From Apostichopus japonicus (lineage: Eukaryota; Echinodermata; Holothuroidea; Aspidochirotida; Stichopodidae): a stretch of 64,000 nt of DNA. The stretch is from contig NC_092569.1 of assembly GCF_037975245.1 (NCBI RefSeq), positions 15,869,501 through 15,933,500 of the forward strand, read 5' to 3'. The position numbers were made by a program, and so were the translations under genes. Positions 3,626 to 46,567 of the stretch are shown here, one piece after another (position 1 is the stretch's first letter; each line of letters starts with the position of its first letter). The notes beneath the pieces were generated by a model, which was not told where the DNA came from, searched no databases, and worked only from the letters and a program-made list of their open reading frames with translations.

Positions 3626-4345
3626 GGTTGGTTGCGCTTGCGTGACTATTGACGCCATAGGGCCAAAGTTCACAGATCTAATAACCTTCAACACATTACT
3701 GTGGCCATTACACTTATACCGAAATAACAAGCGTTTTGCAAACAACTCATGGACCATAAGAACGATAGACTTCAAACTTGGTGAGTGTGTGCCTTGAGAT
3801 GGGTTGTAGTACATGTGGAACTAACGGAGTCGTCATGTAGTAAGTGGTCAGAGGTCAAATAATACACAACGCATATTCAATTAAAGTTAAATGCCAAATA
3901 TCACGTGATCAAAGGAGGTAAAGGTTACCAACGGTCAAATTTTGCACGTAGCAAAATGACCTAGACTGTGTATTTCAAGTTTGAAGTCTAGGATATTTCG
4001 GTAGCTAAAGTTCATTGCTTAACACACTTGCTACAAATTCAGTAATAACAACCTGTTCCCTTTGGTTGCATGTACATTCCAAGCGTTAAGTAGCTCAAAG
4101 TGCTTTCCCAGTGAGGAAGGAATATATAAAAGAGTGCATTGTTTGAATGAACGTTTACATGTGTCTATATACCCAAATATGAGGATGAGATTTGCAACTC
4201 CACGAATTGCTTTCTTGCGTTGTCTGTACGATGGCGCTCTTGTAGATTTGAAACAACACTACTTTGGAAAGCGTACGGAGAAAATCATGAGGTCTTTGCG
4301 TTTCCAGATCAACCTTTCGTGCACTGTAGGGGCAAATGTTTTCAG
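3626..4345 (+). repeat. Inverted segmental duplication, copy A
   Basis: This segment matches, in reverse complement and with moderate divergence, 37520 down to 36893 and then 35030 down to 34935. Shared words include TATTGACGC, GATCACGTGATATTTGGC and the stretch around CAAATATGAGGATGAGATTT. Copy A is uninterrupted where copy B carries a 1.86 kb foldback element. It runs into a fossil FReD last exon, so it is probably the old intron 3 of a FReD gene. Confidence 0.85.
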
Positions 4346-4590
4346 CACACCTGACCGAGATAATGACACATTTGGTAATTTCCATCATAAGCATGAGACT
4401 GTCGGACTGGATTATTATTGTTCGCAGTGTGATGATCCTGGTGGTGTATGTGATCAGTTTAATATCAACACTTGGCTTTCACTTTGTACAAGCAATCGGA
4501 AACTACAATAGAGGCACTGCGGAGAAAATGTTCGCGGACTATGCAGCCAACATTCAATACATTGATATCAAAAATCACCCATCCACGTGA
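4330..4590 (+). pseudogene. Fossil last exon of a FReD gene
   Basis: After an acceptor-like TGCACTGTAG at 4320-4329 the sequence reads GANVFSTPDRDNDTF, the usual start of a FReD last exon. A cysteine cluster C-x2-C-x6-C (CSQCDDPGGVC) then corresponds to the cysteine-rich insertion of the gene at 2.5 kb. After a stop at 4509-4511 the family-like GNYNRGTA continues in another frame to 4590. The conserved GWW is not preserved. No other exons of this copy were recognised nearby, so it is a decayed fragment. An open frame from 4062 that runs through it is not regarded as a gene. Confidence 0.65.
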
Positions 4591-7193: not shown

Positions 7194-9937
7194 ATGAGAT
7201 ATATAAAGAAGTCCATAATTATGAACATTTTAGTGGTAATTTTGGTTATCTCAACACTCTCTGGCCACGCTACTGGTAAGTAAAACAAGTTCATGCACTC
7301 AGTGAGTTATTATGAAAACGTTAGGCCCCACGAGGATCGAAGGAATAAGTTGGAAAAGAGAAGGTCTAATTAATACTAAAATGCCTCATGGGCTCAAAAT
7401 TCAGGAAGAACATGATTAAACTTTCATCTGCTCCCCCCCCCCCCCTTCATATACTTGTTCCCCTTCTGTCATCCCTCTTCTCCTAACGCGCTCACACCTC
7501 TTTACTAAACAGTTTCCTGTTTTTGTCCTTCTGCAGTTAATTCCCTACCCTTAAACCTCTTTTGTACCTCTAACATCAATCTCTTCTGTGTTCACCCTGC
7601 TATGTAACCTTTCTGTATTCTGTGCTTGTACTTTGTCCCTTGTTGTTTCTGTTGAAGATCCTGCTAGGATCGAAAAGTCAGACATTTACACATTCTCTTA
7701 CACAGTCTCTTGAGTGGATAAGCAGTTTGCTAACAGTTTTCGTTTTATGTATATTTTATACTAAACATAACCTTCATTATTATTATAATTTGCAGTCAGA
7801 TTTGATATTACAATCACACATTACACACATTAGATAATATATAGTCTTTTTTGGATTATATGCTGAGTATTAATATTTTTCTTTCAGGGGAACTTTTACT
7901 CACCGACTGTCTCGATGTTTACAATACCGGTTTCACCGAAAGCGGTGTCTTCTCGATTCAACCGCCTTGGTCCGATTCTTCGTTCAATGTTTTCTGTAAT
8001 ATGTCAGATGGAGGTGGCTGGACGGTAAATGCTTTCTCTTAAGTTGATAATAAGTTGTGATTAATGAATATTGACCTACGTATTGCAAAGGTTAATACAC
8101 ACCAATATGAATCTTAGAAAGGGAGGGTTAATATTAATAATGAAATTTTTTGATCATCGCTATTATTTGCTATACAAGCCCGTATCCTATATTCTATATA
8201 TCCATGTTTAGACATAATTCTGTATTCTGTACTGCAGGAGAACTGTATCATATGACGAAAATTCTTCTACTATTTTTACCCCGAACTCTACAGTTTTTCG
8301 GATTTTCTTTGTCTCAGTTCATTTTCCTTCATTTTATGCTTAGTATATAAGGCTTTAATATTTTTTTTTTTTTTTGCACAAAGTCGTTTGCTAGCTATGA
8401 ATCCTAAACACACCAGTGTGAAATCTACTAACTGCCACGCCCACCTCACATGATTTCTTTACCGCTTTGTTGCGCCTACCTGAACGTGATATTCGAACAG
8501 TCGACTTCCAAACTCAATACTACTTGCGCTTGCACCAATACCAAATTGTAGCCTACGTTCTTTCGACCATGGAGGCAAAAACTGTTTTTACCTCCATGGT
8601 TCGACGAGCTTCGAGTGGTAACAAGTGGTAAGTTGGTGAACGCACTCTTGAACGGAAATTCGCTTAGTGTGTCATAAGTCCTGATATCGACATATGTCAG
8701 TCAAATTAAATGATGATAGTCATGAACAACGTTTAGTATCAGATATATTTCAGTTCTTATGGTATACTATAAAAACTTAAGTTCAAAGTTAACGTGATTT
8801 GCTTTTCCAAATTATAACATCAGGTGTTTCAACGACGGATAGATGGATCAGTAAATTTCACTGTCAACTGGGAGGGTTACAAGGAAGGATTCGGCCAACT
8901 TGAACACGAGTTCTGGCTGGGTAATGAGAAACTGTACCGTTTGACTAACCATGGCGAGTATCAACTCCGCATCGATCTGGTGAGCAGTGAAGGGAAGCCT
9001 TACTACGCCAAGTACGACTTCTTCCGCATCAACAATGAAAGCGATTACTATCGGTTATCCGGTCTCGGTGAATACAACGGAAATGCAGGTTTGTCAAATT
9101 GCTAACGCTTGAGTAGATACTTGTTAAAGAAAAGCCACGAAAAAGATCACAGATTTGACAAAATGTTGATTTGGTAATTAAGCTCTGTAAAGATATAAAC
9201 TGATTTTATTGTTCTTTATTGAATTTGTTTTGAGGTTAATGTACCTTGATATTGAAGCAACCTCACATAGGTTTCTGAAATTAAAATCAAAGAAAAGCTT
9301 GTGTCAATTCTCTATAATTGCCCAATTGTGTTTATTTGTTTTCTGTGTGCAAGGCGTAGGAAATATTTTGTTATCGACTTGGTACAATTTATAGTTGCAC
9401 ACATTCTTATGACGTCATGTGAATCAACACAGTTTTTCCAACTTTTGTCAGATATTGACATTTCTACAACTTCGATATAACAGATGATGCTTTAATATTG
9501 CGCGTAGGCTGTACAACTTTGTAAACATTGTAACAAGTTCAAATAGTTTTGAAAAGAAGCAGAAGACATAACTTTCTTTTTCAATAAGAAGTGTCATTTT
9601 TTTTACTCCAGCTTTTTATTTGTTTATTATTCCCATATTTTCAATACTTATAGTGAGTGGAATAGACCCTGATCAAGCGGGTTTGCGACCTCATCTGAAC
9701 CAAACTTTTAAAGCTTATGATTTGGATGACAACAGCTTCCCTGTTCGTTATTGTGCGAAGATCTTCGAAGGTGCATGGTGGTTCAATGCGTACTGTGGCA
9801 ACACAAACCTGAACAGTCTTTATCCTGAGTACATCTTCTGGAATCATCTCCCGGGAGAAGTGTTTACGACTAATAATATCTCATTCACACAGATGAGTAT
9901 TAAACCTAGGGTACACCCATCTAATAATAAAACATAG
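7194..9937 (+). CDS. Short secreted fibrinogen-related protein (FReD only), four exons
   Basis: An intact FReD gene with exons 7221-7275 (or from an upstream in-frame ATG at 7194), 7888-8024, 8824-9088 and 9654-9937. All introns are GT-AG with consistent phases 1,0,1. The product is 246 residues (255 from the upstream ATG). Exon 1 encodes a signal peptide (MNILVVILVISTLSGHA). The fibrinogen domain starts ELLLTDCLDVYNTG and continues with GGGWT, VFQRRIDGSVNF, FWLGNEKL and a DxD-type calcium-loop candidate (YDLDDNS). CAKIFEGAWWFNAYC and NLN follow, and it ends in MSIKPR. The four cysteines expected for two disulfides are present. Several N-x-S/T sites fit secretion. It lacks the TIL/EGF part and the cysteine insertion of the first gene. 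Family role: extracellular recognition of glycans or microbes; the ligand is unknown. Confidence 0.9.
7640..7735 (+). repeat. Dispersed repeat related to the palindromic unit at 10.3 kb
   Basis: In intron 1 of the intact FReD gene, the words GAAGATCCTGCTAGGATCGA and GTGGATAAGCAGTTTGCTAA recur in the same order at 10350-10450. The 95-bp module is probably the tail of a retroelement; its family was not identified with certainty. Confidence 0.55.
8564..8603. repeat. Perfect-looking short hairpin in FReD intron 2
   Basis: CGACCATGGAGGCAAAAAC faces GTTTTTACCTCCATGGTTCG across one base. The arms are about 19 bp and nearly perfect. It may be a minimal palindromic element or an RNA hairpin. Confidence 0.65.
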
Positions 9938-10271
9938 TGATAAGAACAATATTCCGAATGTGATTGTCAAAGCAAACCAATTTTTTTGTCTTCTAGGTTT
10001 TGCTATGACTCAATGATTTTATATATTTGATTATTTTTCTATCTCGTGTTTCATAGAATATATTCTGATAAAGTCGTCAATGCTTAGGACCCAACCAGCT
10101 TTGTGCACTGAGCAACAAAGATATCATTGAGCTGTATGAAACACGCTTAAAGTCATTTTGTAAAAACATGGCAGTAACATAATCAAACCAATGTATCATT
10201 TTACTTTTGTTATTTTAAGATTTATGTTTATATTTTAATGATAAGCGAAAGAGATTACCATATAAATATTA
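9938..10271. other. 3' flank of the intact FReD gene
   Basis: No gene seen. An AATAAA at 9926-9931 overlaps the last codons of the FReD gene; no convincing downstream signal was picked out. Confidence 0.4.
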
Positions 10272-10460
10272 TGTGTAAAAGTAGGTTGGCCTGACGTTTC
10301 GATCCTAGCAGGATCTTCTTCAGAGTCTTCTTCAGAGGCCTTTAGCCTCTGAAGAAGATCCTGGTAGGATGGAAACGTCAGGCCAACTTACTTTTACACA
10401 TTCTATTACACATGCAGGCTCTCTAGTGGATAAGCAGTTTGCTAACAGTTTTATTTTATT
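10272..10460. repeat. Long palindrome built from a dispersed repeat end
   Basis: The left arm 10272-10339 and right arm 10345-10400 are near-perfect inverted copies containing CTGACGTTTCGATCCTAGCA and its complement. A nested TCTTCTTCAGAG duplication lies at the centre. The right arm continues with GTGGATAAGCAGTTTGCTAA, as in the copy at 7640-7735. This looks like two repeat copies joined head to head. Confidence 0.75.
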
Positions 10461-20855: not shown

Positions 20856-22667
20856 CAGCGAGTAAAAGAAGAGTGGGCAAAATTCGTCATTTCGGTTGTA
20901 TCATTGTAAGACTGAAATACAGTCAATAAAATGTGCCACATACAATTCAGATTCAAACAAGATTTATATTATTTGAATATATAATTTGCAATGAATAATG
21001 TTGGCGTTTCTGTAATGTTTCATATTGTTTATTTTCGTTTTGTTTAATTGCAAATAATAACAACACAAACCTTCAATCACGGGAGACATAAAAAAAATAT
21101 AATTTTTATATGGATTTATCGTCATTTTAAAGATGATGTGGGAGTTTAATTTCTTCCGAAAATTAGACAAATAAGAAATAAAGAATTTAAGTAAAGACCA
21201 ATTACAATTAAAAAAATATTAACAATACTCAGAAAGCGGCCTGTGTTGATTTTTTAATTAGTAAATTGCCATATAAAAATTGAAAGCAACGAAAAGTATT
21301 TGGGATAACGTTATATTTGATTTGCAAAGGCGGCAAGAGAGTTTATTTGACGGATATGGGGGAGGGAAGGAGGCACAAAGTTGCCGGGACAAGTGACTTT
21401 CCTTTGCTGCATTTACAAAATCGAATCAAAGCTTTCCGACAAAATGGATCCGCTTTGTATATTAGGCCTATACTGCAAGTTTTAGTGATTAACTAATTTG
21501 AATTTAATTTTTCAACAAAAGGTCACTTTTTTTTAAGTAACAAAAGACACTGTTTATTTACAAGTAAAAAGAAGGGGGAGTACTTCTCATGAACAGAAAG
21601 GGACACTTGCGGAACATGAAAAATTGCATTTGTTATGTTCTTCGAAGAACTTTGGGAGTACATGCTTCATGTGGCGGTTCCCCACCCCACCTCCCCCCTC
21701 CTCCCGACCCGGTTCCGACGACCGACCCTGAAAGTTGTAGCTTTATAAAGAATGAGTTTTATATGGGCAGTTGACTTTATATACGCTCTCTACATGCAGT
21801 AGTACAGTTAATTCACAGATTTTTCTTCCTGTTTCCAATCACGATAGGCACAAATTCTGTGGTGTTTGTGTAGGCGACTATATATAGCTGCATCATACGT
21901 CCTAGATATTAGCAGACTTTTTCAAATTAATTGAGGTAGCTTAAGACACTTTACCCTTTCTTCCCACAAAACCCACAAATTCTCTGTTCGTAACCATACC
22001 ATGCCGACGGTAAACATATTTAGTGAAGTGCCGTTTAAGTAACATCTGGTTTAACTCTGTTCTATAGTCTTGGCCGCGACACCAATATACAATTTATATT
22101 TTTGCCCAGACAGTTTAACATTTTCCCTCTTCCATCAAAATCTCAACAATCCGCGCCATTTATATAAAGATTCAACACAGGCGCGCTTGCTAACATGTTA
22201 AATCAGTAAACTTTACTTTTACGTTTATTCGTTTTCGGTATGTTCATTTTTGAAAACAAGATCACAGATGAATACAAAAAAAAAAAAAACATCACCTTAA
22301 CTTTCATGTTTTCTAGAAAAGTAGAGAGACAAAAAAGAAAAAGAAGAAAAGCCCATTGTGTTACTGTTTTGGGATGTATTTTTTTTACTGCATTGAATTT
22401 CAATGATTTTTTTATCAACTACTCCGGCACTACATATAGGAGCAACACAATAGTAATCAACCTATTAAATCAATCTTCAATGAATATTTCCAAATGTGTT
22501 ACGAAGTTATACCCTACTAACAATTGTCATGAGTGTAAGTCATTTGTTTTCTAGCTACTCATTGAAGTTATTTCATTAATACCCTACTGATGTATAGCCA
22601 CAGAAATATCCTATCGTCATTATAACGACAGACATTAAGAACTATAAAATAATCCAATCAAACTTAC
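20856..22667. other. Downstream side (intron) of the bHLH gene; no exon recognised
   Basis: This follows the donor site of the bHLH exon on the minus strand. A second coding exon, expected to encode a short tail beginning TWPF-like in TCF21/musculin relatives, was looked for and not found; it may lie left of the window's visible signal or be diverged. Confidence 0.45.
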
Positions 22668-23249
22668 CAGCTTTACTGGATGAACAGATTCCTGTTCGTT
22701 TTCATTCTGTAGTATTCGCTGAAGATGGGCAATGTAACAAGCAGCTAACCTTAAAGTATCCAATTTAGACAATTTGGTATCATCGGGTACCCACGGCAGA
22801 CTTGTTTTCAGTTTTGTAAAAGCTTTGCTCAAAACTCTCATTCTACTACGCTCTCGTGCGTTAGCTGCGTTCCTCTGCGACGGCTTAATCGGCGCACGAG
22901 TTCGCGAACTCTTCTTCGAAACTCTGCCGCCGGTCAGTTTCTGTTTCCGCCTCCGTCGACGGGTCGTTTCTGTTTGCTCCCCTGTCTTCACTCCCTTCGG
23001 ATGAACCTGATCCTTCTCCGTCCCACTTGTCTCCTCCGACGAACTTGTTGCAAAGTCTCCATCTTGTCTCTGAAAGTAATCGAGATCTATCTCGAACGCT
23101 ACATCAATCGTATCATGGTCAACCGATAGCGAAGTTTTGAAACCATTGTAACCGAACTGTTCCGCTGTGAATGTGTGAGAATGTTGCGATAGAGGCTCGC
23201 CGAGCCCGTTCATGGGCATGGCGTAACAAGCTGCTAGCTCCGATGCCAT
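22668..23249 (-). CDS. TCF21/musculin-family bHLH transcription factor, first coding exon
   Basis: A 194-codon first coding exon starting at [15 protein letters not shown] (ATG at 23249-23247, good context GAAATGG). It ends exactly at a GTAAGT donor (22667-22662) in phase 0. The N-terminal half is acidic and serine-rich. A basic cluster RRRRRKQK lies at residues 97-104. The bHLH domain spans about residues 125-180: basic part [20 protein letters not shown], loop [18 protein letters not shown], helix 2 [13 protein letters not shown]. The [18 protein letters not shown] and [19 protein letters not shown] signatures are those of TCF21/musculin, and the break after VHPVKL is where those genes have their intron. 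It should act as a nuclear E-box-binding dimer with E proteins, in mesodermal or coelomic cell fate by family analogy. An open frame continues upstream to 23396 but is probably 5' UTR with a possible acceptor (GAAAACAG) before GCGAAGG. Confidence 0.92.
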
Positions 23250-25590
23250 TTCGGAGTGTAACTGCCTTCCTTCGCCTGTTTTCAATAATATAATAATAAT
23301 AAAATAGAAACAACAACAACTAGGGTCTAGGCCAATAGGAAAACAGAATATTGTTTGATCAGTATTTCTATGCGTACATTTCGTGACTACTACCACAAGA
23401 TAAAAACACAGTCAAACACAGACAAATTCCATGCGTCATATTTATAAAAATAAAAATAAAAAAATTGCACGATGATCCAGCAATCCGCAATACTTGTATC
23501 TTTCTCATAGATGAAGTGATATGTAAAGCAATCGTATTATTCCAGTGACAGTTCCCGGGTTGAACTAGGCGTAGTCATTTCAGCTACTGCCAGAAAACAC
23601 TCCGTATATTATCTGTACGTAAATTGTTTCGATCTGTTTTCGTTTCAGATTCAAAAAAGTTAAAGTCAGAGACCGCTAAATAAACGACAAAATATGCAAA
23701 AGTCTCTAAATCGGTGAAGTGCCAGATTTTAAAGGAAGAAATTCATGCTCGTGTGTAATTGTTTGTGAACTGATCAATTGTTTTAAGTCGTTATCTTTAT
23801 AACGATTAACCACGGCCCTATTGCGTACGGTCAAACACGTGACAAACACGAACAAATTCGTGTACAAGGTCAAATGCTAATTTCTCCTCTGTAGTTCGTA
23901 AAGGGCAAAAAATGTTGCATCAAAACAGTTCCTTTAACATTTTAGTATAAATTTTAACACCTTTCAATTCCATTTGCTCACTGAAATAATATTTGATGTT
24001 TTCTCCAACTCTAATCATTTAAATGTTACAGTTGACGAAGCGTTTAAACTGGCACTACTGTATTCAACATTCTTTAGTTAACACTTCCCAGTTGTATTGT
24101 TGCTGGTCCGTTTATTGCTAAGAAGGTAATTGTTACGCTTTGATGAAAAATACTGCATATTTGTCTCTCTACTTGCATTTAATACAATGAAGCTCGTAAC
24201 TTGGATATCTGGATTTTTTTTATTTTAAACTATATTTTAATATCATTGTTTAAAAATTTGACAAACAATAAAAGATATTTGCTTGGAGATCGTCGTTTTG
24301 TAATTTAATAGCGGCGTTGGCCGTTTCGTAAAGAAACTTCATTGTTTCTCGATATGCAAAGGCTGCAGCTGTTACACATAATTAAATAGGAAAACAAATT
24401 TTCAAGAAAACTTGAGACAAAACAAAATTTCAAAGGAAAAACAATATAATGCACTTCAAGTCAGTCAATATGTTTGAGCAAGCCGTATTCCAGAAATTCA
24501 TGGGCAGAAGTCGCTTGGCTAATTTATTTGTTTCGCTGCTGTAAGATAGAAATGACCTCTGAAATGTTTTCGGTCTGCGCTGATCAGCAAATAAACACGT
24601 GAAGGAAATTGTTTTAGGTAGTTTCTACTTGCCTTTAAAAACTATCTCTCTAACGTTTCCTTGTAACTTCCCTGTGTTTGCTCTTACGTAAAACGCTATT
24701 TCCTGTATTGTTCTATGACATAATCTTCTTGGTGTCATTGAGAAACATGGAGAATGGTTTCATTTCCAATACGAAAACAGAAAAAAAAACGAAGATTTAA
24801 AAAAAAAGAAGATTGGCATCCATTTAATAAATATCAAACCGCGGGATATCCAACATTGGGGAACAAGAATATAAAAGTTAAGTGTTTCGGTGACATTAAA
24901 AATAAGGATAATCCGTTCATATTTCGAAGAAATTGAAGAAAATTCGAAGAAATCGAAGAAAGTTCGAAGAAATCCACAAAAGGTCCAACTATTGACAAAA
25001 CCATGGAATAGAAAACATAAGACTTTGTTAAGCTATAAGCTGAGGCATTTGATAAGGTAATGTTAACTGGTCGCCATAAAAGCGCAAATAAAACTGGGCG
25101 GTGCGGAATTTGAGAGTTTGCAACCGAGGGAGAAATGTATTTCCTCGTGCACCTTATAAAAAACCAGACATAAAAGAAGCAGTAAGAATTAGTATTTCAA
25201 AAATTTCTTGAGCAAAATCCTGAACTGAAGAATCACTGCCCGGCATTGAAAACAGGGCACAAATAGTTTTGATGAGCGAACGAGGTAGCTTATTTCGAGG
25301 TTATCCCGACTGGTCTAGTCTAACCTGGTCTAATCATTGCAATTCCGCATTACGCGTCGGAGAGCAAACGAGACCGGTTAAAGTTTTAAAAGAAAAGTTT
25401 GAACGCTTCAGCACTCAAAGTACGTGGTGATGGTGACCTTAAAGAAATAAAACCAGGGCAACGGGTGACATGCCCTGTCAGAATCTAGCCAATTGAACGT
25501 GAGTAATTTGGTAGATTTTAGGCGTTGGGGCGGGCATTCACCCGAGTGAAATGAGAGATTGACATACGGAAGTCTCTGAAGGAGCGAATG
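23250..25590. other. 5' flank of the bHLH gene, no other gene seen
   Basis: AT-rich. A short run of imperfect TTCGAAGAAAT words lies at about 24921-24975. No promoter element could be assigned with confidence. Confidence 0.45.
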
Positions 25591-26039: not shown

Positions 26040-26770
26040 TCCCGCCCCCAGTATCCTCTACCTTAAAGTCGGTCCAGCTTGTGGGAACTATTGCTCCCGA
26101 GCCGACCATGAAGCGACAGTCGGTCCACATCGTGACCAAATCGGGTCAAGTTTAATATTCATCGTGGCGACGGGGGCTGTCGCAGTTGATTCGGGTCGTG
26201 ATTGTACTAGTGCGGCTGTCAACAACTCGACTCCGATCCGACTCTTATGTATAACCAACGAGGAAGCGTTGTCAAATCAGGTAATGGTTGCAGAAAGTCG
26301 AAATGGGCGGCCCCAAGTATGTGTGTATCTATTTTTAGATCCTCCTGTAAGCAGGAAATCGCGAAGAAGACACCATTGGCTTATCAAAGCCGCAAGCTGA
26401 CCGAAGTCAGTCTCTTACATTCATATTTAACGTCCATGATTATGAATTGTCAATTGTCAACAACTCTGTAACTGGACGACATACTTTTAATCTTGAAGTG
26501 ACTCGAACTCGGGACCTTATGATTGAAGGGCACCGGCGTTAACCACTGAGCTAACACTCGGGCCCTGTTGGACTAGTGTGCAGGAGATTAAACTGTTGCG
26601 TCGAGCTAGTGTGCGGCTAACCTACGATTCAACTGCGACCCGGCAACGACGACCCGACTTGGTGGCAACGAGTGTCTCCAACTCATCCCCGAACAGTGAG
26701 TTGCGTCGGGTCGCAGTTAGTGGGAATCCGGATCGCAATGACTCAGTATGTAAAGCTATATCCGGAGGTT
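26040..26770. repeat. GC-richer repeat block interrupted by a SINE
   Basis: Base composition is clearly less AT-rich than its surroundings, with many CGG/TCGGGTCG words on both sides of a SINE (26399-26567). Words such as GTCGCAGTTGATTCG on the left and the complement of a TCGCAGTTGAATCG-like stretch on the right suggest an inverted-repeat element that the SINE entered. Frames through it have no domain match. Confidence 0.4.
26399..26567 (-). mobile_element. tRNA-derived SINE, copy 1
   Basis: On the minus strand it reads GAGTGTTAGCTCAGTGGTTA (A box TTAGCTCAGTGG at 26543-26554), then a B box within about 26498-26514 (CCCGAGTTCGAGTCAC). A body with GTATGTCGTCCAGTTACAGA and a tail with AGAGACTGACTTCGGTCAGC follow. 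The same order occurs on the plus strand at 41537-41735. Confidence 0.8.
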
Positions 26771-28096: not shown

Positions 28097-28195
<99 letters not shown>

Positions 28196-28196
28196 C
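28097..28196. repeat. (TA)n microsatellite
   Basis: A TA tract of about 100 bases. It ends directly at a short tRNA-like stretch (28194-28222). Confidence 0.95.
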
Positions 28197-28222
28197 CGTA
28201 CCACTCGAGCGAAGTGATTCCG
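28194..28222 (-). mobile_element. Fragment of the tRNA-like head of the hammerhead-bearing element
   Basis: On the minus strand GAATCACTTCGCTCGAGTGG then TACGGATA closely matches the A-box side of the element at 34.9 kb (GAATCACTGTGGTCGAGTGG then TACAGACT). The fragment stops at a TA tract; no B box or ribozyme core is present here. Confidence 0.5.
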
Positions 28223-31200
28223 TTTTGGCTACAGGTGTGTCAACGCCTATTAACTGGCAACTGGTGCTTTCGAATCATAAACGAAAAGCACTTCGACTTC
28301 ACGGAACTGATCACTCTTAACGGACTTTTCACTATTTTCGCAAAGATATCAAGGAATTTATCAGTGTCAACGCACAAAATAGTGCCAAGCCTTGAGGTAG
28401 GCTAGCTGAACCCACGTGTATGGGAGGAGCCTAATTTGATGTTTAATCCCCGTGAATAGCCTATTCGTTATCGTGATAAGAGGTCATATTACCGTATAAA
28501 AAACAAAAACACACAAAAACATACCACTTTGACACAAACTTGACTCTGTTATTCATAACACTGTATGGGTTTCTAATGAACAATTCGAATGGCTTAAATT
28601 GGATGAAACGTTTTACAAAAAAAAGATAAGAAAAACACGGTTATTGAACAATTTCCAACACACCCTTGACGTGCGTTATATGATTCGCTTTTGTAAAATT
28701 CAATGGGCTATTTTAAATTTTAACCGATTGAGTTCTGAGTGCAAACATCTTGTACATTGATCATACGAAATATCCCCCGCCGCCCTTCACCTCTACCCCG
28801 TCATTCCAAAAAATGAGGTCTTTGATTTACCGAACCCTAGTGACTGAAGGAGATCACTTTTCAAGTGGTTTTATGACGATTCGATATTAACTGTCATTAG
28901 CCTCTTTATTTCACCTCGTTCACCTAGTTTTAAGTAATAGTTTATGCTCTTAAAACCGAGATTTTACTCTTCAACTGAAGTCAACAAGAATGATCTGGTA
29001 TCTTTCAAAGTAGTTAAGGGTAAATCAAAGACAGCATTAGGTCTACTCAAGTGGCAGATACGTCAACAATCCGAATCGAGACTACAGATTTGACTTGACA
29101 ATAGTCATTTAATCCATGGGAGTTGCTAACAACTTCCTGTTATTACTAGACTATAGCTAACAATAGTTATCGATCGTTATTATTAATATGTTGATTTTGT
29201 ATGTTCTTCTCTGGTTATTGTCACAGTCGCAAATATAAAAAAAAAAGTATAAATCCGGTTAGTTCCAACGATTATCATCAAGACATGCGTTCTCCATATG
29301 CGGCACCCGAAAGCGTAATCGCCATACAATATTGCACTAGTCGGCTATTCCGATGAATTAAGGTGTATCTATTTATATATGATCTCTAGAGTAAGACAAA
29401 AATATGTCACCAAACAGGAATAACTTGGGCTATTTTTCGAAAATTATTCGCGTATAAATTCAACGTGGTTGTTGACCATTCCACATCATTACATTCCACA
29501 CCCATTTAATGCACGCAATGCCACTTTTATACAAATTATAACATCTTTCTCCGATGTTCTCGTACGTTGTATAGACGGGTGCTTGTTGAGCTGGCCCTGT
29601 CTCTGCCCGGTTCCCTCCTGTCTGGTGTCACTCTGCTACATTCTGGGTTGATAAACGACGTTTCTTGTTTGTGTGAACCGATAAATAAAGTTTCAACTTT
29701 GACGAGGAAATCCCCGGTTTGTTGGGGTGAAAATTCTTACGGTGCATGGCCGAGCGATGTGAGTCACAGGCTGAGCACGGATATCGGAAAGGCTTTGTGG
29801 CATGTGGAATATGAGTGGATATTAACAACGACTGTCGCTAAAAATGAGATAATGCCAATGACTGAGTCTCTTAAAGAGATTGCATTTCATGGTGGTGACG
29901 AAAACAAAATAGGTTAAGAAAAGAAAAGTAAATGCATGACCGCGTGAACTATCATGCAAAGTGTGAAAATGTGAGTATTTGTTTTATAGATATGCATAAC
30001 ATAATCTGATTTACCCGGCTAAGCTATATACACAGGAAAATACTTTTTTTGGAGGTTTGTTTCTAGTTTCTCATGGTTAAATGTCTCCGTTTATTTATAC
30101 TTATTATATTTGAATTATTATTATTATTTTTTTCAATTTATGTATTATTCCTTTGGCCATGCATCCGAAATTACTGGTGCGATTTGCTAAACTGTCATTT
30201 ACAGACTACATTTCAATGTACCGTGTGTGTCATCTAAGGGTTATATGGTATCCATGCATTGTGACGCATGCACTGCAAACTACAGTTACGGTACACAGGG
30301 AGGGAAGTTGCACTGACAAGAACCTGAAAGTTCGTGACCTCCTTCTTACTAAACGGGGTCACTGGTCCATTCATTCTCAGATCAGTGACACTCGACCGTA
30401 ATCACACAAAGCTAAATGGTCCCTTGAGCAACAGCTGGGGAGGGGGGGGTGGTGGAAATACTCCTGTATTCTAGGTATACGATCATAAATATACTCATAA
30501 TCGGTAGAAACGAATCCATCAATTTGTAACTTGTCTGGAGTAATTTCTTGAATGAACAATCGATACAGGGAAATTAATGACTGAGCAAATACATGTGTAG
30601 GCTGGCTCCGATCGCCATCTCGCTGAACAATAACGCTTGGGCGCTTTGAGAACTAACTTATCTCTGTGTAGAGGTTCTTCTGCGAAGAAGTTACAACTAC
30701 TAAGTCTGTCCTATAGGCATATCTGTGTTTTGCCGAGATCAAACGTTATGTTACTGCTGGCATTTACTGCAGGCCCGCGCTAATGCTAACAACATTTCTG
30801 TTATCCTACTCGTATAGCAATATAATTGATCCGAAGATATGACTGGTTGCTACATTTGGTTACAAAACAATTAATGATGTCATAATGTCCAATTCAGTTG
30901 CAAATGTTATGTTCTTCTTTCTCACATATTTACATCACATATATATCCGAAAATGCGGAGATATGGAATTTTCAAACTTTTGAGATTCTAAATACAGAAA
31001 CATTCTACTGTTACATAGAATAGTAGTTAAGCAAACTTTCAAATGTTATGATATTTTTAAGAAACACAAGAGGTTTATTATAGTGAAGGAATGCTTTCTT
31101 AATAACATTTGTCATTATGAGATATCGCAGAACAAGTGTATTATGCATTTCCTGGAGGAGGGAGGGTCTAAGCCACATAATAGGTTATATTCAACGAAAT

Positions 31201-34704: not shown

Positions 34705-34707
<3 letters not shown>
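34636..34707. repeat. Two direct copies of a 40-bp unit
   Basis: GGTTTAGCATATACCGCACA with TCTATGATAT is repeated as GGTTTAGCATGTACCGTACA with TCTATGATAT, immediately before a TA tract. Confidence 0.7.

Positions 34708-34770
<63 letters not shown>
34708..34770. repeat. (TA)n microsatellite
   Basis: A pure TA tract directly beside the hammerhead-bearing element; frames through it are artefacts. Confidence 0.95.
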
Positions 34771-34773
<3 letters not shown>

Positions 34774-34934
34774 AAGAATAACACACCAGAAAAATTCCAC
34801 TTCACGACCGGTTTCGTCCTTTGGGACTCATCAGGCGAAGGTGGGAATCTAACCCCCGAATATTGTGTCACGATCCGAAGTCTGTACCACTCGACCACAG
34901 TGATTCTACTGGAACACAGTATAATCACAGTAGA
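34771..34934 (-). mobile_element. tRNA-headed short retroelement carrying a hammerhead ribozyme
   Basis: Read on the minus strand, an A-box-like TGGTCGAGTGG (34897-34887) is followed 42 bases later by a B-box-like GGGTTAGATTCCC (34855-34843), the spacing of a tRNA gene. The hammerhead core follows directly, then a short body and a TA tract. The right side abuts the inverted-duplication sequence at 34935, where a fossil FReD exon would otherwise begin, so insertion here probably removed that exon from copy B. It could be a SINE or a Penelope-like or retrozyme-type derivative. Confidence 0.6.
34797..34844 (-). ncRNA. Type I hammerhead ribozyme (minimal, PLE/retrozyme style)
   Basis: On the minus strand the core CTGATGA is followed by GTCC-CAAA-GGAC (perfect helix II) and CGAAAC. 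ACCGGT then closes a very short helix III, and the GTC cleavage triplet follows. The flanking strands CCACCTTCGC (5') and GTGAAGTGG (3') pair to form helix I of about nine pairs with one bulged C. All invariant core positions (CUGANGA, GAAA, NUH) are present. The self-complementary ACCGGT fits the dimeric hammerheads known from Penelope-like elements and retrozymes. Confidence 0.85.
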
Positions 34935-35030
34935 ATGCGCTGAAAACATTTCCCCTACAATGAATGAAAGGTTGATTCTGTAACCGCAAAGACGTAATGA
35001 TTTTCTCCGTTCGCTTTCTAGAGTGGTGTT
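34935..35030 (-). repeat. Inverted segmental duplication, copy B, distal piece
   Basis: In reverse complement it matches 4268-4345 (words TGAAAACATTT, GAAAGGTTGAT, TGATTTTCTCCGT). It is separated from the rest of copy B by the foldback element and ends with the GGTGTT target duplication (35025-35030). Confidence 0.8.
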
Positions 35031-36892
35031 TACGGAATGCCAAATGTATCAAAAATGTCCAAAACTATATAAGCATGTCCAAAAAAATATAAGCATGTCC
35101 AAAAAAATATAAGCATGTCCAAAAAAATATAAGCATGTCCAAATTTATATAAACATATCGAAACTAATATAAGTATGTCCAAAAATAATATGATCATGCC
35201 CAAAATAATATGAGAGTGTCGAAAAATTATATGAACATGTCGAATGTAACTGCTAACTTCAACTTTTTAGTGAACATTTTGGCATCTGAATTCACGCCAT
35301 CTGTTGCAAAATATCCAAAAAAATATAAGCATGTCCAAATTTATATAAACATGTCGAAACCAATATGAGTATGTCCAAAAATAATGAGAGCATGTCCAAA
35401 ATAATATAAGAGTGTCGAAAGACTATATGAGCATGTCCAAAATATAAAAAAGTGTCGAAAAATAATACAAAAGTCTCGAGCGTAACTGCTCGATTCAACT
35501 TATAATGAACAGTCAGGCGTTTGAATTTTACGCCATATGTTCCAAATATCAAACTTTTTATTTTGGTATGCTGAAAACAAAAACACCATATCCAGCGTAA
35601 CTTAAGACGATATACAGTTCATCCATTACCGTATTAGTGTGTGTGTTAATATTTTAATGATATTTCGATCAAGAACGATTTTATTTTCGAGGAAATATTA
35701 GTTGAGTTGTTTCGTAGCGCGAGTGATCAACCTGTCCCCAAGGTGCTGTAACTATCAGTGAGTTTAATACGAAGAACCACTGTGTCCAACATTCCACGCG
35801 GTTTAATCAATAATATGTAGTTGGCGAGTTCTTCCCACGTTTCCATCTTGAAATTTAGTTAAAAGGTGAGAGTGAAGATTAAACGTTGAATACCCCTAAC
35901 CTAGGCTTATTTTTTTTTTAATTCTGGGCTAGTGTCCGACTTCGCCTGGTAACCGTAATTAAGTGTCACAATTTTCCGTTAAAAAAGTAACACATATAGT
36001 AGTTCATTTTCACTGTCAACGTACGCATGTGTGATAACTACTGTACGTTGTTAGCGCTTGTGCATGTTGTACGTACTTTCGCACGTGAACTTCTTTGCCT
36101 TCGCAACAATATATGAATAATCTCAGCACCTCTAGGCAGGGCGAAACCACTCACATTACGTAGGGATGTAAAAAGGAAAAATGTTAGGTGATGGTCTTGT
36201 TTTTACATATTTTGAATTATTTGCGTCACAAAAACAGAAGAATGTTTCAATAATATATTGTCATAATGATAACTATTGTGTCAGTTGATACAAATTACCT
36301 CCAAAGAAGGTATTGTAAGCTAATTTTTTTCGACATACCAATATAAAAGTTCGATATTTGAAACATTTGGCGTGACTTCAAACGCCAAAATGTTCATAAC
36401 AAAGTTGAAGTTAGCAGTTACACACGAGACTTTTATATTATTATTCGACACTCTCATATAATTTTGGGCGTGCTCATATTATATTTTGACATACTTATAT
36501 GTGTTTGGACATGCGCGTATTATTTTGGACATGCTCATATAGTTTTGACATGTCTATATAAATTTGGACATTCTCATATAAGTTTGGACATGCTTATATT
36601 TTTTTGGATATTTTGCAACATATGGCGTAACTTAAAACGCCAAAATGTTCAAAACAAAATTGAATTAGGCAGTTACATTTGTCCCTCTTGTATTATTTTT
36701 CGACATTCTTTTAATATGTTGGACATGCTCATATAGTCTTTCGACACTCTCATATTATTTTGGACATGCTCTTATTATTTTTGGACATACTCATATTAGT
36801 TTCGACATGTTTATATAAATTTGGACATGCTTATATTATTTTGGACATGCTTATATTGTTTTGGACATTTTTGAAACGTATGGCATGCCGTA
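35031..36892. mobile_element. TU-like foldback transposon with arms made of short tandem repeats
   Basis: Two inverted arms, about 35031-35575 and 36340-36892, flank about 760 bp of non-coding middle. The outer ends read TACGGAATGCCA and, reversed, TACGGCATGCCA. Each arm is made of roughly 20-bp repeats of the type ATGTCCAAAATAATATAAGC plus ATGTCGAAA variants. These are organised in two larger units that share ACGCCATATGTTGCAAAATA and TAACTGCTAACTTCAACTTT. GGTGTT flanks both ends (35025-35030, 36893-36898). The build resembles the TU foldback elements described from sea urchin. No transposase is visible, so it would move in trans. Confidence 0.85.
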
Positions 36893-37520
36893 GGTGTTGT
36901 TTTAAATCTACAAGAGCGCCATCGTAAATACAACACAAGAAAGCAATTCATGGAGTTGCAAATCTCATCCTCATATTTGGGTACGAACGTTCATTCAAAC
37001 AATGTACTCTTAATAAAGTACTTCCTCGTTGGTAAAGCACTTTGAGCACTTTTAAGGTTTGGAATGTACATTGAACCAAAGGGACAAGTTTGTTATTATT
37101 GAATATGAATTTGTAGCAAGTTTGTTAAGCAATGAACTTAAGCCACCGAAGAAATATCATTAACTTGAAACTTGAAATAAGTTAACCACGCAGTCTACGT
37201 GATTTTGCTACGTGCAAAATTTGGCCAATGGTAACCTTTACCTCCTTTGATCACGTGATATTTGGCATTTAAACTTTAATTGAATATGTGTTGTTTGTTA
37301 TTTGACCTCTGACCTCTTACTACATGACGACTCCATTAGTCACACATGTACTACAACCCATCTCAAAGCACACACTCACCAAGTTTGAAGTCCATCGGTC
37401 TAATGGTCCGTTTATGCAAAACGCTTATTTTGGTACACGTATAATGGCCGCAGTTCTATATGGGTAAGTAGACCTGTGACCTTTGTCCTTATTGCGTCAA
37501 TATTCACGCAGGCGAAACAA
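36893..37520 (-). repeat. Inverted segmental duplication, copy B, main piece
   Basis: The reverse complement of this segment matches 3626-4262, including the CTCATCCTCATATTTGGGTA, GATCACGTGATATTTGGC and CATGTACTACAACCCATCTC regions. It lies downstream of the minus-strand FReD pseudogene just as copy A lies downstream of the plus-strand FReD gene. Confidence 0.88.
37303..37315. promoter_or_regulatory. DR1-type motif in the duplicated flank (sequence match only)
   Basis: TGACCTCTGACCT is an exact direct repeat of AGGTCA half sites (complement) with one-base spacing. Copy A keeps a slightly changed version near 3848-3858 (GGTCAGAGGTCA). Functional use is unproven. Confidence 0.25.
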
Positions 37521-38240
37521 CCAATGCCTTAGCACGTACCCACTAATGTGTTATTACCTACTTGTGTATGAAGTATTGGTTCATATTGTTATTTTGGTGT
37601 ACGTGTAATCGCCACAATGCTTTTGTGTGTGATTTGACCTTTGTCTTTCACTACCGGGCTCACGACCCGCACTTGTTTCGCTTCGCGACCCATGGTGAGA
37701 AAGCGTTGCTTCATCAAAATATGTGTATGATTGCATGTATGCTCGCCAGTAATAATCTTGACCAGAGTAACATTGGTGTAAGTTCCTTTCTTTTAGTTTA
37801 AGTTTTCGTTGATTGTATTACTATTTCTGCTGGGAATATTAAAGAAACGAGAGGTCAAAGCTATTTGGTCTTAAATCCACTCCGTGTTTAATATCCTATT
37901 GCTTTCTGACAGCATATTTGTTTATAAACACCAAGAAACTACGAGTAAAGAAATGACGCGAGTGTTGAAATGAATTTACGACATTAGTTATCTACGTGGA
38001 TTCGTTTGAGCAGTCTCTGTCCACAATTATTCAGGTTGGAGAATCTTACTAGTAAATAATGCATAACTGAGTTCCTATTTGTTTTTAGTTTAGTGTCACA
38101 GTGATATATGATGTATCGATCATTCTCAAGAGCAAAAAAGCAGGTAAGTAGTCATAAATTCATAGCTTGTCAACTCAAAACACAAATACATTCAGAACAT
38201 TAGATAAAAACAACATTGTTAAGTTATTCATTTAACATAG
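37521..38240. other. 3' flank of the FReD pseudogene, no gene seen
   Basis: Around 37565-37640 a second, diverged version of the TATTTTGGT(A/G)(C/T)ACGT to TGACCTTTGTC stretch of copy B recurs, so part of the flank is itself duplicated. An open frame at 37562 has no domain. Confidence 0.45.
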
Positions 38241-41536: not shown

Positions 41537-41735
41537 ATTTGTGGAGTGTTAGCTCAGTGGTTAACGACAGATTCTTTCAATCATGAGGTCGTGAGTTCGA
41601 GTAACTCTAAGATTAATGTATGTCGTCCAGTTACAGAGTTTTGACAAAGTGATAACTCATATACATGGACGTTAAATATGAATGTAAGAGACTGACTTCG
41701 GTCAGCTGGAGGGCTTTGAGGAGGATCTAAAATAC
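41537..41735 (+). mobile_element. tRNA-derived SINE, copy 2
   Basis: A box TTAGCTCAGTGG at 41549-41560 and B-box-like GAGTTCGAGTAAC at 41593-41605 are followed by the same body (GTATGTCGTCCAGTTACAGA) and tail (AGAGACTGACTTCGGTCAGC) as the minus-strand copy at 26.4 kb. It continues to GGAGGATCTAAAATACATA. Confidence 0.82.
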
Positions 41736-42340
41736 ATATATACATAAGTATCATTGACAATGCGCAGCAGAATACTATGCATAAGTTGCACGTTATTCTA
41801 TTATGTACAGTGCATACACAAGCATTTTGACGTAATCGTTGTTTGCATCTGGAATATCAAACTTTGACCTCCTTAAAAGAATATCAAACAATACTGACGA
41901 ACGGGTAATTCCATTAGCTTCGTTTTTAGATGTTTGTTGTATTTGTTTACTGTATTCATGTACGTGTATTACGTGTATTTGCAGCCCTACAGTCAGTGGA
42001 GTAACAGGTAATTTTAAGCTTAAAATTTATGTACAGGTTATAACAGGTTGAATCGTATGAGTTAGCTGATATTGTTTATTTGTAATATTCTTGCTTGTTC
42101 GTTATTTGGTGTAGCAGAATTGTACTGTGTACGCATTAACTCATATGAGACTACATCTGTTTGGCTCAGATACAATTCGAATGCGATTTGAAATATATGG
42201 GTTGTATTTCGGTAATTGTTGTTGCTAAAGTTGACGACGTTTACCATATTTCAACCAGGTGAAGACAGTTATTGTATGTATTTTCTATTATGGGTAATCT
42301 GTAAACAAAATAATGAAGTTGCAATGTATTTGAGTTGAGT
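41736..42340. other. 5' flank of the IFIT-like gene
   Basis: No exon was recognised. No clear interferon-stimulated response element was seen on inspection. Confidence 0.4.
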
Positions 42341-42348
42341 TATAAATA
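42341..42348 (+). promoter_or_regulatory. TATA-box candidate of the IFIT-like gene
   Basis: TATAAATA lies 39 bases before the ATG at 42380. If used, the 5' UTR would be only about 10 bases. A branch-like and pyrimidine-rich stretch ending in ATCATAG just before the ATG suggests instead an acceptor with a non-coding first exon upstream. The two readings exclude each other. Confidence 0.3.
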
Positions 42349-42379
42349 CGCTCTGATATCACTTTTATTAATCATAGAC

Positions 42380-45300
42380 ATGGCAACGACAGAAAACTGG
42401 TGGCAAAACTTACCTTGCCATTTTCATCCATCATGGCGTCTGGACGAGATAACGAATCTTGATCTCCTACAACTGAAACGCAAAGCTCAAAATAATGCAG
42501 AAGACTCGATGGTAGTGGAACACAAGATATATCAAGCCTTTCTCGAGTATCCGTGTGGGAAATTCTGCAACAATAAGAAACCTAGTCTTACTAAAGCCCT
42601 GAAATTTCTCGAGCAGGCGGACGAATATATAACAAATACTTTAAGGGAAAACAACGAAGCTAGGATTGGCTACGGAATCGTGATTAATTGTTTTCGCATG
42701 TGGAAAGATCCACATCGAGTTAAATATGAAGATACATTGAGAACTCTGAACGAAGAGAAGGAGAATTTCCCAAAACACGAACATTACATATTTGCTACAC
42801 GTGCATACAGTCTTTCCCGTTTGGGGCCAAAATGGATCGAAGAATCACAAGTATTTTTTGATAAGGCATTGAAAGGATATCCCGATAACTGCCAGTGGCT
42901 GTTCGGAAAGGCCTTGATGTTCGGAAGAAGATCACGACTATCAATTGGTAGAGATGGTTGGACCAAAGATGCCATTAAGAAAAAGCAAGAAAACTTGAAA
43001 TCGGAAAAGGATATATTGCAAACCATATTACAAAAAGAACCCGATAATAGTCTTGTCAAAGTTTATATCGGTGAAGTGTTATTACTCTTAGGTGAGTCCG
43101 AGGATGCAGAGTTATATATTGCAGAAGCTTTAGCATGTAGCCAAAATGATGCCAAAGTTGCTGAAAAGGCAGGTTCAGTTTATAGAAAACTTGGCAAAAT
43201 TGATGTTGCGGAAGATATTTTTGAGGACCAACTTACATGGAAGGAAACATCTGAGGCGCATTTTCAGCTGGGCAAACTTAAGAAAGACCGCGTTAACACT
43301 AAAGACACAACTAAAAGTGAGGAATATCTTAGACAAGCCTTAGTTCATTTCACCAAAGGACATGAAATAGATCCTGCCCATAACCCTTGCTTGATAGGAA
43401 AAGCTGAGATGACAGCAAAAGTTGGATATTATGAAAAAGCTAAACATGTATTCACAGATATATTTGAACAAGAAATGAATGGTATGCTATCTGCTGGAGA
43501 TAGTCTATATGTTTACACGGTTGCTGCAAACTTAGGCCAAAGGTTACTTGAGAAAGTCTTCGACATGGACGAAATTGTCAATATCTACTACAGATTCCTT
43601 ACCCTTTGCACCATTCCTAAAAGAAGAAAACAAATCATTAAAAAATTAAAAAAAATAAGCGAAAACGTAAGCTCTGTACAATTTCAACTGTATGCAGTAT
43701 TCAAAATGGCGGAACTGAAAAGACGTTTCGGTTCCTACTGCGAAGCAATACAACTTTACGAGCAGTTACTCGACCTCAAGAATGGTGACGGAGAGCTCGT
43801 TAAAGTAAGGGAGATCAGAACCGGATTGTCTCTTGCACAGGCGAAGAAAAGACTCAACGAAGGAATTGCAGACAATAAGGAAGACGTACTGGAAATATAC
43901 TCATTGGTTTCCTCAACGATCGAGCAAGGAAGTCTCGAGGGTAGCTATCTATTTGCAAAGGCAGCTGAAAACCTACGTTCGATTTTTTTTCACATAAACT
44001 TAGGTATCCCTTGTACACTTGCACGGATAAAGTTAATCCTAGACGAGAAAGTCGACATATTGCATGCTGATTTTGAAGTAAAAGGTGACGACGATATCGC
44101 CGAAATGATTCATATAGACATGAAAAGGGATTTAATTAGAAATCTGGTGGAACAATTTTGCACTTACGATACTGGTCTTGCAGATAAAATGCAAACGAAA
44201 AACGACGGTTTCCTACTGAAGGTTTACGGCTCACTAGAGGGACTTCGAAGAAAACGCTTGGATTTTGAGTTGGAACTCTTCAAGGCCCACATCGATGGCA
44301 AATCATGGAATGATAATTGCGCGCATACGGCAACCGCAGTACTTCTACAATCAAGGGTAATACTGGACCATGCTATTCATTTATATCAGGTAAAAATGTC
44401 ATGTTTTTTTTTTCTAAATGAAACAACTCGAAGAGAACTACATTTGTTGAAACAAATCTGCTTTATATTGGACCAAAAACCAAGATAAGCATATGAACGT
44501 AATGTACTTTAACCTCTAAATGTTAAGCCTCTACAACTCAATTTGTCAACACTTGTGCATGACAGCTAAATTAAATATTAAACGAGGTCCTACCAAACTG
44601 CTAAAAAGGCTGTTTCGTCATTTCAATATTGACGAGATATGACTGCACATACAAAAGAGGGTACGTGTTGTTTTTCGATTGAATATGGTTGTCCTAACAA
44701 TATAAACTCCTACCTGAATGTAATCACATAATAAACAGTATATTTTTAATTCAAATCATATAATGTTCATTCACAAGAGGGAAGTATATTTATACTCCTA
44801 AATTAGATAGAAGTACTTCGAAAGGAACCAGGGCGTTCCATCTTTCCCATACATTTCGATTGGAAACAAGCATCTGTGGACAAGGAAACTACGAAGAAAA
44901 AGCTACGTGGATGGTGTGCGAGTGCATTTCCAGAATATAGTATGCCGCCAGACGTTTTTGAACATCTGCTCCAGGTAAACACTAATGTATAAAGAGAAAA
45001 GTTCACTGTATAAGAATTATCGCATATACTACAAAATGCTTAATGCTTGGAACGCTCCTTATCGCTAAATTGTCGACGAGGCCATTTTTCTCCTCAGTAT
45101 ACAGGCCTGAATGTTAATGTTACCACTGGACTAGCCTGAATGTTAATGTTACCATTGTACAGGCTTGAATGTTAATATTTACCATTATACAGGCCTGAAT
45201 GTTAATGTTACCATTGGACAGGCCTGAATGTTCATGTTTACCATTATACAGGCCTGAATGTTAATGTTACCATTGCACAGGCATGAATTTTAAATGTTTA

Positions 45301-46567
45301 CCATTGCACAAGCCTGTATGTTAATGTTACCATTGTAGAGGCCTGAATGTTCATGTTACCATTGTACAGGCCTTAATGATACTGTTACCATTGTTCATGC
45401 CTTAATGCTAATGTTACCATTGTACAGGTCCGAATGTTAATGTTACCATTGTACAGGCCTTAATGTAAATGTTACCATTGTACAGGCCTGAATGTTAATG
45501 TTACCATTGTACAGGCCTGAATGTTAATGTTACCATTGTTCATGCCTTAATGCTAATTTTGCCATTGTACAGGTCCGAATGTTAATGTTACCATTGTACA
45601 GGTCCGAATGTTCATGTTTACCATTGCACAGGCCTGAATGTTCATGTTTACCATTGTACAGGCCTGAATGTTAATGTTACCATTGTACAGGTCCGAATGT
45701 TAATGTTACCATTGTACAGGCCTTAATGTTAATGTTACTATTGTACAGGCCTGAATGTTAATGTTACCATTGTACAGGCCTGAAGTTAATGTTACCATTG
45801 TATAGGCCTTAATATTAACGTTACTATTGTTCAATACCATTGCACGACACTTATTATTGAAAGAAGAAAGGCTTCACCAACTTACTGAAAATAAAAGTTA
45901 CTTTGAATGATTAACTATGTCGCATTTAAGCACAGTAAATTATACAATAATACGGTCCTACAGTCCATAACATCGATAACTCGCTAAAATAAGCTCGATC
46001 GAGTATGTAATTTCACTTTGAATTGCTAAAATGTTATTTCAGTATATAACAGTATGAAGTTTTGCTGTTGAGTATCATATCAATTTGTTTTGTCGCATTT
46101 CACGTACAACTGTGCCCGTCCCCCGCAAACGCAAATCCCGTTCGAACGAAAAATGTACAAATATGAACTTTGGAGCGCTCATTTGATGTCGTACATGACT
46201 GATATTATTTGATACATGGATTTTCATATACACCCAAGTGAACACTACTGATAGGGGTGGGGAAAATTAACCATGAAAGTTGTACATAGGGACCTGGATG
46301 GATTTCCAGGTCATGTTTTTTTCTGCAGTGAACAATATGGTTGGACTTTAGACCACGCGGTGTTTAATAGAAAATGTCTGGATTGAGATAATACATAGCT
46401 GACTGAGTACGTCATAGTGTAAACTAGCCAATGATGTCATTTTCTTTTACATTTCTGACACTCCCATATAGGGACTTAACCCAATGACAAACCCTTGCAA
46501 TAAAAACGCCCAAAAATGAATATTCATAGTCACGCTCGTCTCGCCTTGAATACCCGTGCACAGTGCA

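Follow-up and report, generated by a model that had tools for sequence, protein, structure and literature searches.

For metazoan non-long-terminal-repeat (non-LTR) retrozymes, Penelope-like elements (PLEs) have been put forward as a strong candidate partner (discussion of PMC7229834), and in 2020 both the transcription of animal retrozymes and the retrotransposon that mobilises them were stated as open (section 9 of PMC7761336). According to PMC11167929, cleavage by the purified protein of an anole PLE falls in AT-rich DNA, both DNA strands are extended, and reverse transcription begins inside the RNA at two sites, which delimit an optional tail of 30–40 bp; unprocessed RNA is the main substrate. 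Here we analyzed a 64,000-nucleotide stretch of the sea cucumber Apostichopus japonicus (hereafter the window; RefSeq assembly GCF_037975245.1, contig NC_092569.1, positions 15,869,501–15,933,500), in which positions 34773–34912 of the minus strand are a truncated copy of a 341-bp tandem metazoan non-LTR retrozyme. The insertion scars of this retrozyme resemble those of a resident PLE, which hints at the enzyme that might mobilise it.

A hammerhead ribozyme within a 341-bp tandem unit

The sole Rfam match at gathering level in the window is a type I hammerhead (RF00163) on the minus strand at 34840–34800, with a score of 38.6 bits against a cut-off of 34 bits (E 3.2e-6, window searched with all families). 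A preliminary description made from the letters alone had proposed an intact minus-strand hammerhead that an Rfam covariance model should recognise, and this was borne out. The A- and B-box-like blocks that it placed just upstream at tRNA spacing are also there, 43 nt apart from start to start, and helix I begins where the B-box arm ends, as described: the last C of the B box is the first base of the extended helix I. One such box pair occurs in the window and none in 100 dinucleotide shuffles, by criteria fixed after the sequence was seen and with a presumed box consensus. The features of the copy, in window positions, are as follows.

34773–34912, minus strand: truncated retrozyme copy, monomer positions 234–341 (34912–34806), then 1–33 (34805–34773)
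34887–34897, minus strand: A-box-like TGGTCGAGTGG, 0 mismatches
34844–34854, minus strand: B-box-like GGTTAGATTCC, 1 mismatch; the reference monomer has GGTTCGATTCC
34800–34840, minus strand: type I hammerhead ribozyme with full core (Rfam RF00163 and alignment), predicted cleavage between 34806 and 34805
34840–34835 with 34805–34800, minus strand: helix I, CTTCGC with GTGAAG, lengthened by CCA/TGG across a bulged C
34834–34828, minus strand: hammerhead core box CTGATGA
34827–34816, minus strand: stem II, GTCC-CAAA-GGAC
34807–34812, minus strand: ACCGGT, a self-complementary stretch forming the minimal helix III, which would span 6 bp in a double hammerhead
3' of C34806, minus strand: predicted cleavage position
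34790–34794, minus strand: TTTTT, resembling an RNA polymerase III (Pol III) terminator, matching the sole run of at least four T in the reference monomer
34707–34770, no strand assigned: (TA)n 3' of the window copy, the same as after most copies examined
28195–28258, minus strand: second, old retrozyme fragment, monomer 211–265, 72% identity, E 7.5e-5, followed by (TA)-rich 28174–28093

Searching the genome (671,581,487 bases, 35 contigs) with 34771–34934 returned 47 matches (best 40 of 998 candidates scored), mostly 91%–95% identical over query positions 23–162. Copies elsewhere align from 34912 and not from 34934, so that 34771–34934, first taken for the unit, was misjudged: the full unit is 341 bp, non-coding, and in tandem at some loci (e.g., L032). 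Monomer positions given here follow the L032 monomer, in which position 1 is the first base past the cleavage site, TTTTT stands at 12–16, TATATAT at 44–50, the A box at 249–259, the B box at 292–302 and the ribozyme at 306–341. The suspected repeat family is real, with 161 exact genomic occurrences of a 35-nt ribozyme string (80 and 81 per strand) versus none for the reversed control; the window copy, with its shorter loop, lies outside this count. The head fragment first noted at 28194–28222 is likewise real, although longer than then stated (28258–28195, minus strand), whereas weak head- or tail-like matches at 58486 and 60290 gave no monomer match at E 1e-3.

A whole-genome RF00163 search listed 59 matches, 50 of them above the cut-off (best 74 of 66,307 candidates scored), and all 20 loci fetched from this list carry the 341-bp monomer. 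The 107 full copies in loci L023–L098 comprise 61 distinct sequences; CTGANGA, GAAA and the UH cleavage dinucleotide are preserved in 94 of these copies, and helix III reads ACCGGTC in 95. Across 31 loci, picked either by the whole monomer (L079–L098) or by positions 88–218 (L126–L136), the minority frequency averages 0.003 within the CTGATGA box, 0.017 for the ribozyme as a whole and 0.041 elsewhere. Median identity between loci is 92% (4553 pairs). Because the helices hardly vary and the copies are too alike, covariation tells little: the anticipated copies are plentiful, but the only compensatory changes are a single CG-to-TA replacement in helix I and a single CG-to-GC replacement in helix III, the latter creating a new palindrome. 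In L059 the helix III palindrome ACCGGT has become ACGCGT, keeping its self-complementarity. The monomer has a GC content of 41.6% and nil coding capacity, the longest stop-free stretch of the tripled monomer being 85 aa.

Viral and prokaryotic collections yielded 15 core-string matches at 14 loci, all with GTC 5' of the core (type III layout, judged by eye) and with no tRNA-like head seen; no viral contig matched a pattern that combined the B box with the core. The type III-layout hammerheads of viral contigs L001–L011 lie shortly upstream of an ATG, several of them preceded, by eye, by a GTCTTCAAAGACAC-like hairpin.

The preliminary description had read the locus as a separate Pol III-type short interspersed element (SINE) ending near the (TA)n. 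A stand-alone SINE about 120–165 bp long, combining a tRNA-like head with a ribozyme and moved by a long interspersed element (LINE), would account for boxes 43 nt apart, both exact at a spacing of 40–47 nt in 53 of 106 copies, for the 97 of 106 copies in which at least four T follow closely on the ribozyme, and for the many copies truncated to about that length. However, on their upstream side copies pass into the preceding monomer; the repeat length is 341 bp, and the sequence continues through the cleavage site. When loci were retrieved with only positions 88–218, all 11 reach at least the A box and nine run to the cleavage site. Nor is the head recognisable as a tRNA: RF00005 is absent from the window copy at E up to 10 and from five further loci at E up to 1, and ARAGORN on 56 loci gave four tRNA-like matches, none over a retrozyme head. 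The SINE is thus largely refuted by the 341-bp unit and hardly probable at all in our judgment, and the tRNA head is unsupported. As Pol III boxes, the two blocks are suggestive only; their mean minority frequency is 0.027 versus 0.041 elsewhere, but at most 5000 random block pairs were compared and 640 of them are equally low, so that the boxes are not exceptional.

Retrozyme copies end at two preferred sites and pair head to head

In 119 chained stretches from 76 fetched loci (L023–L098), the 3' ends past the cleavage site fall at positions 44–58 in 54 chains, at 75–88 in 41, at 24–43 in 10 and elsewhere in 14. There are thus two preferred 3' ends, 28–37 nt apart and downstream of the hammerhead. 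(TA)-rich sequence begins within 40 nt past the 3' end in 92 of the 119 chains (48/54 and 33/41 in the two main classes), against a background of 1.9% of random 40-mers of the window. By contrast with these fixed 3' ends, the 5' ends are scattered. The first 56 loci gave 92 chains, 68 of which cross the cleavage junction, and the longest insert, 866 nt, goes beyond one monomer. Since inserts run through the junction, the copied RNA would have been either uncut there or reclosed, that is, an uncut multimer or a circle.

Neighboring chains within 700 nt are arranged head to head in 27 cases and tail to tail in one (L054), and no tail-to-tail pair lies within 80 nt. Among the 29 head-to-head pairs listed, some of which count a locus twice or have arms shorter than 50 nt, both arms could be classed in 17, and 15 of these use two different sites (8.5 expected, P 0.0012); merging the near-duplicates L047 and L088 leaves 14 of 16 discordant. 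A pair of fixed 3' ends together with double-arm inserts is, to our knowledge, unusual for LINEs and SINEs, which also speaks against the SINE.

The same data bear on whether reverse transcription is needed at all. A satellite DNA spreading by recombination in (TA)n, with its end sites being AT-rich stretches of the monomer, would fit the tandem multimers and the (TA)n beside most ends, and the TATATAT at positions 44–50 could recombine with (TA)n. However, it leaves unexplained why variable 5' ends stand beside fixed 3' ends, why head-to-head pairs outnumber tail-to-tail pairs by 27 to 1, and why each arm takes one site; we consider such spreading improbable, the more so given the similar two-site pattern of the PLE described below, for which it offers no explanation either.

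For the window copy itself, the candidate target-site duplication was equalled in 89 of 2000 shuffles and in 64 of about 2000 random pairs, and comparison with the related repeat at 4285 revealed no empty site. This repeat is dispersed, with an internal array of ~20-bp units, at 34936–37526 and 3622–4349 of the window; the retrozyme copy stands at its end.

The resident Penelope-like element shows a similar end pattern

A genome search for the GIY-YIG domain gave 37 matches (best 150 of 626 candidates scored). Seven open reading frames (ORFs) were scanned for PLE domains: five have RVT_1 plus GIY-YIG (one RVT_1 below the Pfam cut-off), one has GIY-YIG alone and one has neither. A (TA)8 run lies at most 1 kb downstream in 13 of 20 GIY-YIG matches, as compared to 16% of random window points. 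Past the PLE ORF, by ~130 bp in L119, stands CGAAACGTC/GTG (the slash marking the assumed cleavage), so that the PLE carries the GAAACGTC/GTG half of a hammerhead.

We fetched 27 PLE-type loci (L099–L125, some overlapping), 16 of which were examined for the distance from motif to (TA)n. These 16 hold 24 occurrences of GAAACGT(C/T)GTG, or 21 without the overlapping L112 and L123. From GAAACGTC, the next (TA)n is 45–59 nt away in 10 of the 21, 81–83 nt in another 10 and 3080 nt in one, which lies inside a tandem in L119. When the 213-bp PLE 3' end was compared with the genome (42 matches; best 40 of 78 candidates), 22 matches stop at query positions 176–184 (+44 to +52); the other 20, which include the query itself, extend to +81, where the query ends. 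Head-to-head PLE pairs are discordant in nine of nine cases, six with both (TA) distances measured and three read from query ends; two of the nine, those at C16:5773 kb and C16:5961 kb, appear to be near duplicates. At C11:4174027–4174545, match coordinates place a retrozyme ribozyme (plus strand) and a PLE 3' end (minus strand) ~300 bp apart with their 3' ends facing.

A putative model of Penelope-driven mobilisation

Taken together, we consider it quite probable that the window copy is a truncated 341-bp non-autonomous retrozyme, with boxes and a hammerhead but no gene, that was copied by a PLE protein from multimeric or circular RNA. Penelope-driven mobilisation is likely because both families share the relation of ends to (TA)n and the discordant pairs, and because the anole protein behaves in a matching way (PMC11167929). 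In the proposed model, tandem retrozyme copies would be transcribed, either by Pol III or by read-through. The hammerheads would cut part of the RNA into monomers, which a tRNA ligase may close into circles. The PLE protein would then take up multimeric or circular retrozyme RNA and cut (TA)n DNA on both strands. Reverse transcription would start inside the RNA at one of the two sites, often with one site per DNA end, and the two cDNA arms would finally be joined head to head.

Several observations weigh against this model. The loci were selected by similarity and not at random, and next to (TA)n the ends given by BLAST may be off by a few bases. The window copy ends at position 33, outside both main 3'-end classes. 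A tandem neighbor is the closest copy in only nine of 44 one-way comparisons (L030 and L080 left out); in the median comparison, 15% of the other copies are at least as close. On the PLE side, three of the remaining 11 loci (L103, L104 and L107) have the motif but no downstream (TA) run, and eight of the 27 lack GAAACGT(C/T)GTG. Among the latter, L120–L122 form a second subfamily with CTGA(A/C)GAAG...CGAAA motifs at another distance to (TA)n. The 20 PLE matches that reach +81 may run on, as does the one at C13:25224416, whose next (TA) is 3080 nt away. Near GAAACGTC/GTG of the PLE, neither a regular expression nor inspection by eye found a CTGANGA box, and an Rfam search of six PLE loci, taken to E 0.5, detected no hammerhead; since no full hammerhead was found there, the PLE cleavage site is an assumption. 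Finally, no significant alignment joins the retrozyme tail to the PLE tail, since 195 of 2000 shuffles do equally well, so that a recognition shared by both would be one of geometry only.

As to the template, some copies are young. L079, flanked on either side by (TA)n, has two monomers that do not differ over 341 bases and an inverted arm that is identical to them over 169. The L080 monomer, on a different contig, matches the two monomers at 341 of 341 positions, from which it follows that the retrozyme moved recently. L030 and L080 are distinct loci that share an identical 200-mer.

The published retrozyme model would have the element moved mainly from RNA circles, with the rest of the process as above. 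Circles would agree with inserts that exceed a monomer in length, reaching 866 nt, and with the identical tandem monomers of L079, as well as with the predicted fold of the circular 341-nt RNA, in which helix I (pair probabilities 0.82–0.97) and stem II (0.98–0.99) of the ribozyme form. Such circles were shown in other animals (results of PMC7229834). In the same fold, however, the core CUG is paired elsewhere (0.86–0.88), which leaves the predicted circle in an inactive form. The identity within L079 fits a circle without proving it, since L080 matches the L079 monomers as well as these match each other. Moreover, the ~10% difference between tandem neighbors in L027, L039, L072 and L082 fits a heterogeneous multimer RNA, and unprocessed RNA is the main PLE substrate in vitro (PMC11167929). 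Tandem neighbors are closer than chance but not always nearest, and judged by these sequences a multimer RNA appears to fit at least as well as a circle. We regard movement mainly from circles as possible but doubtful.

The hammerhead could work as a dimer through the palindromic ACCGGT, as first suggested. The best fold of the monomer differs from the ribozyme fold, and the best dimer predicted by RNAcofold is a double hammerhead with a 6-bp helix III (−34.3 versus 2 × −15.1 kcal/mol).

A Pol III transcript would stop before the reverse transcription start sites, and therefore the mobile RNA must read through or use another promoter; the terminator before these sites poses a genuine problem for any simple Pol III model. 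A bolder version, which we rate as unlikely, takes the monomer as a full Pol III mini-gene (A box, B box, and TTTTT from 12 nt past cleavage) whose transcript would cut off its own terminator. The Penelope protein would take up the read-through RNA, and two molecules of it would prime the two sides of a single (TA)n break, each side at a different fixed position of the RNA. If this is right, the retrozyme would genuinely parasitise the PLE, imitating the spacing of the PLE RNA and not its sequence.

In one genome, there are both a retrozyme with young copies and a PLE with a similar footprint of two sites, (TA)n and double arms, by which the suggested partnership becomes testable at the bench. 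One site per arm would be a new constraint on PLE proteins, and it is absent from the main text of PMC11167929. Among the open-licence papers listed (10–20 per search), judged by titles and abstract openings, none reports a sea cucumber retrozyme or ends shared by retrozyme and PLE.

Other features of the window

An imperfect inverted repeat at 10271–10459 and 7648–7748 bears minimal hammerhead-like motifs (CTGAAGA ... GAAACGTC) on both strands and gave no Rfam hammerhead at E up to 5. A 178-bp tRNA-type SINE with A and B boxes, in which no ribozyme was seen, is present at 26384–26559 (minus strand) and 41544–41719 (plus strand), the two copies being 86.5% identical. A minisatellite with units of ~29 bp, as estimated from self-match spacing, occupies 45095–45833. 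The ORFs of the window encode a TPR protein of 723 aa (42317–44485), a bHLH protein (22635–23408, minus strand), which we take to be TCF21-like, and a fibrinogen C domain (9572–9934).

Comparison with known systems

In the schistosome elements Sm-alpha and Sj-alpha, according to PMC2770079, PMC4918200 and PMC8490949, a hammerhead is likewise joined to tRNA-related sequence in a dispersed repeat, and the related Schistosoma mansoni element W36.2_W001 measures 335 bp; the likeness is drawn from their description. Sm-alpha has a full detectable tRNA (Gln in the text and Glu in the legend of Fig. 7 of PMC4918200), whereas the 341-bp element matches no tRNA model. Newt and axolotl hammerhead repeats, also compared by description, share the very short palindromic helix III, the favored dimer and a length of ~330–350 bp, but boxes and mapped insertion ends are not described for them in the results of PMC7229834.

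The anole PAc PLE (PMC11167929) resembles the present system in its AT-rich target, two internal reverse transcription starts 30–40 bp apart, extension of both strands, tandem copies, and a hammerhead near the start sites. PLEs encode reverse transcriptase and GIY-YIG, whereas the retrozyme encodes nothing. Furthermore, no difference in start sites between the strands was observed for the anole PLE in vitro, whereas the paired arms here mostly use different sites.

The closest likeness is to the metazoan non-LTR retrozymes of PMC7229834, which share the type I hammerhead, a non-coding tandem unit of 170–400 nt, a GC content below 50% and coexisting PLEs; helix III of the 341-bp element is shorter than in most of the invertebrate retrozymes described there. 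Metazoan retrozymes are without promoters according to PMC7761336, whereas the 341-bp element has A and B boxes. The same review states that they also lack motifs by which their partner could be recognised; the insertion footprint of the sea cucumber retrozyme hints at one.
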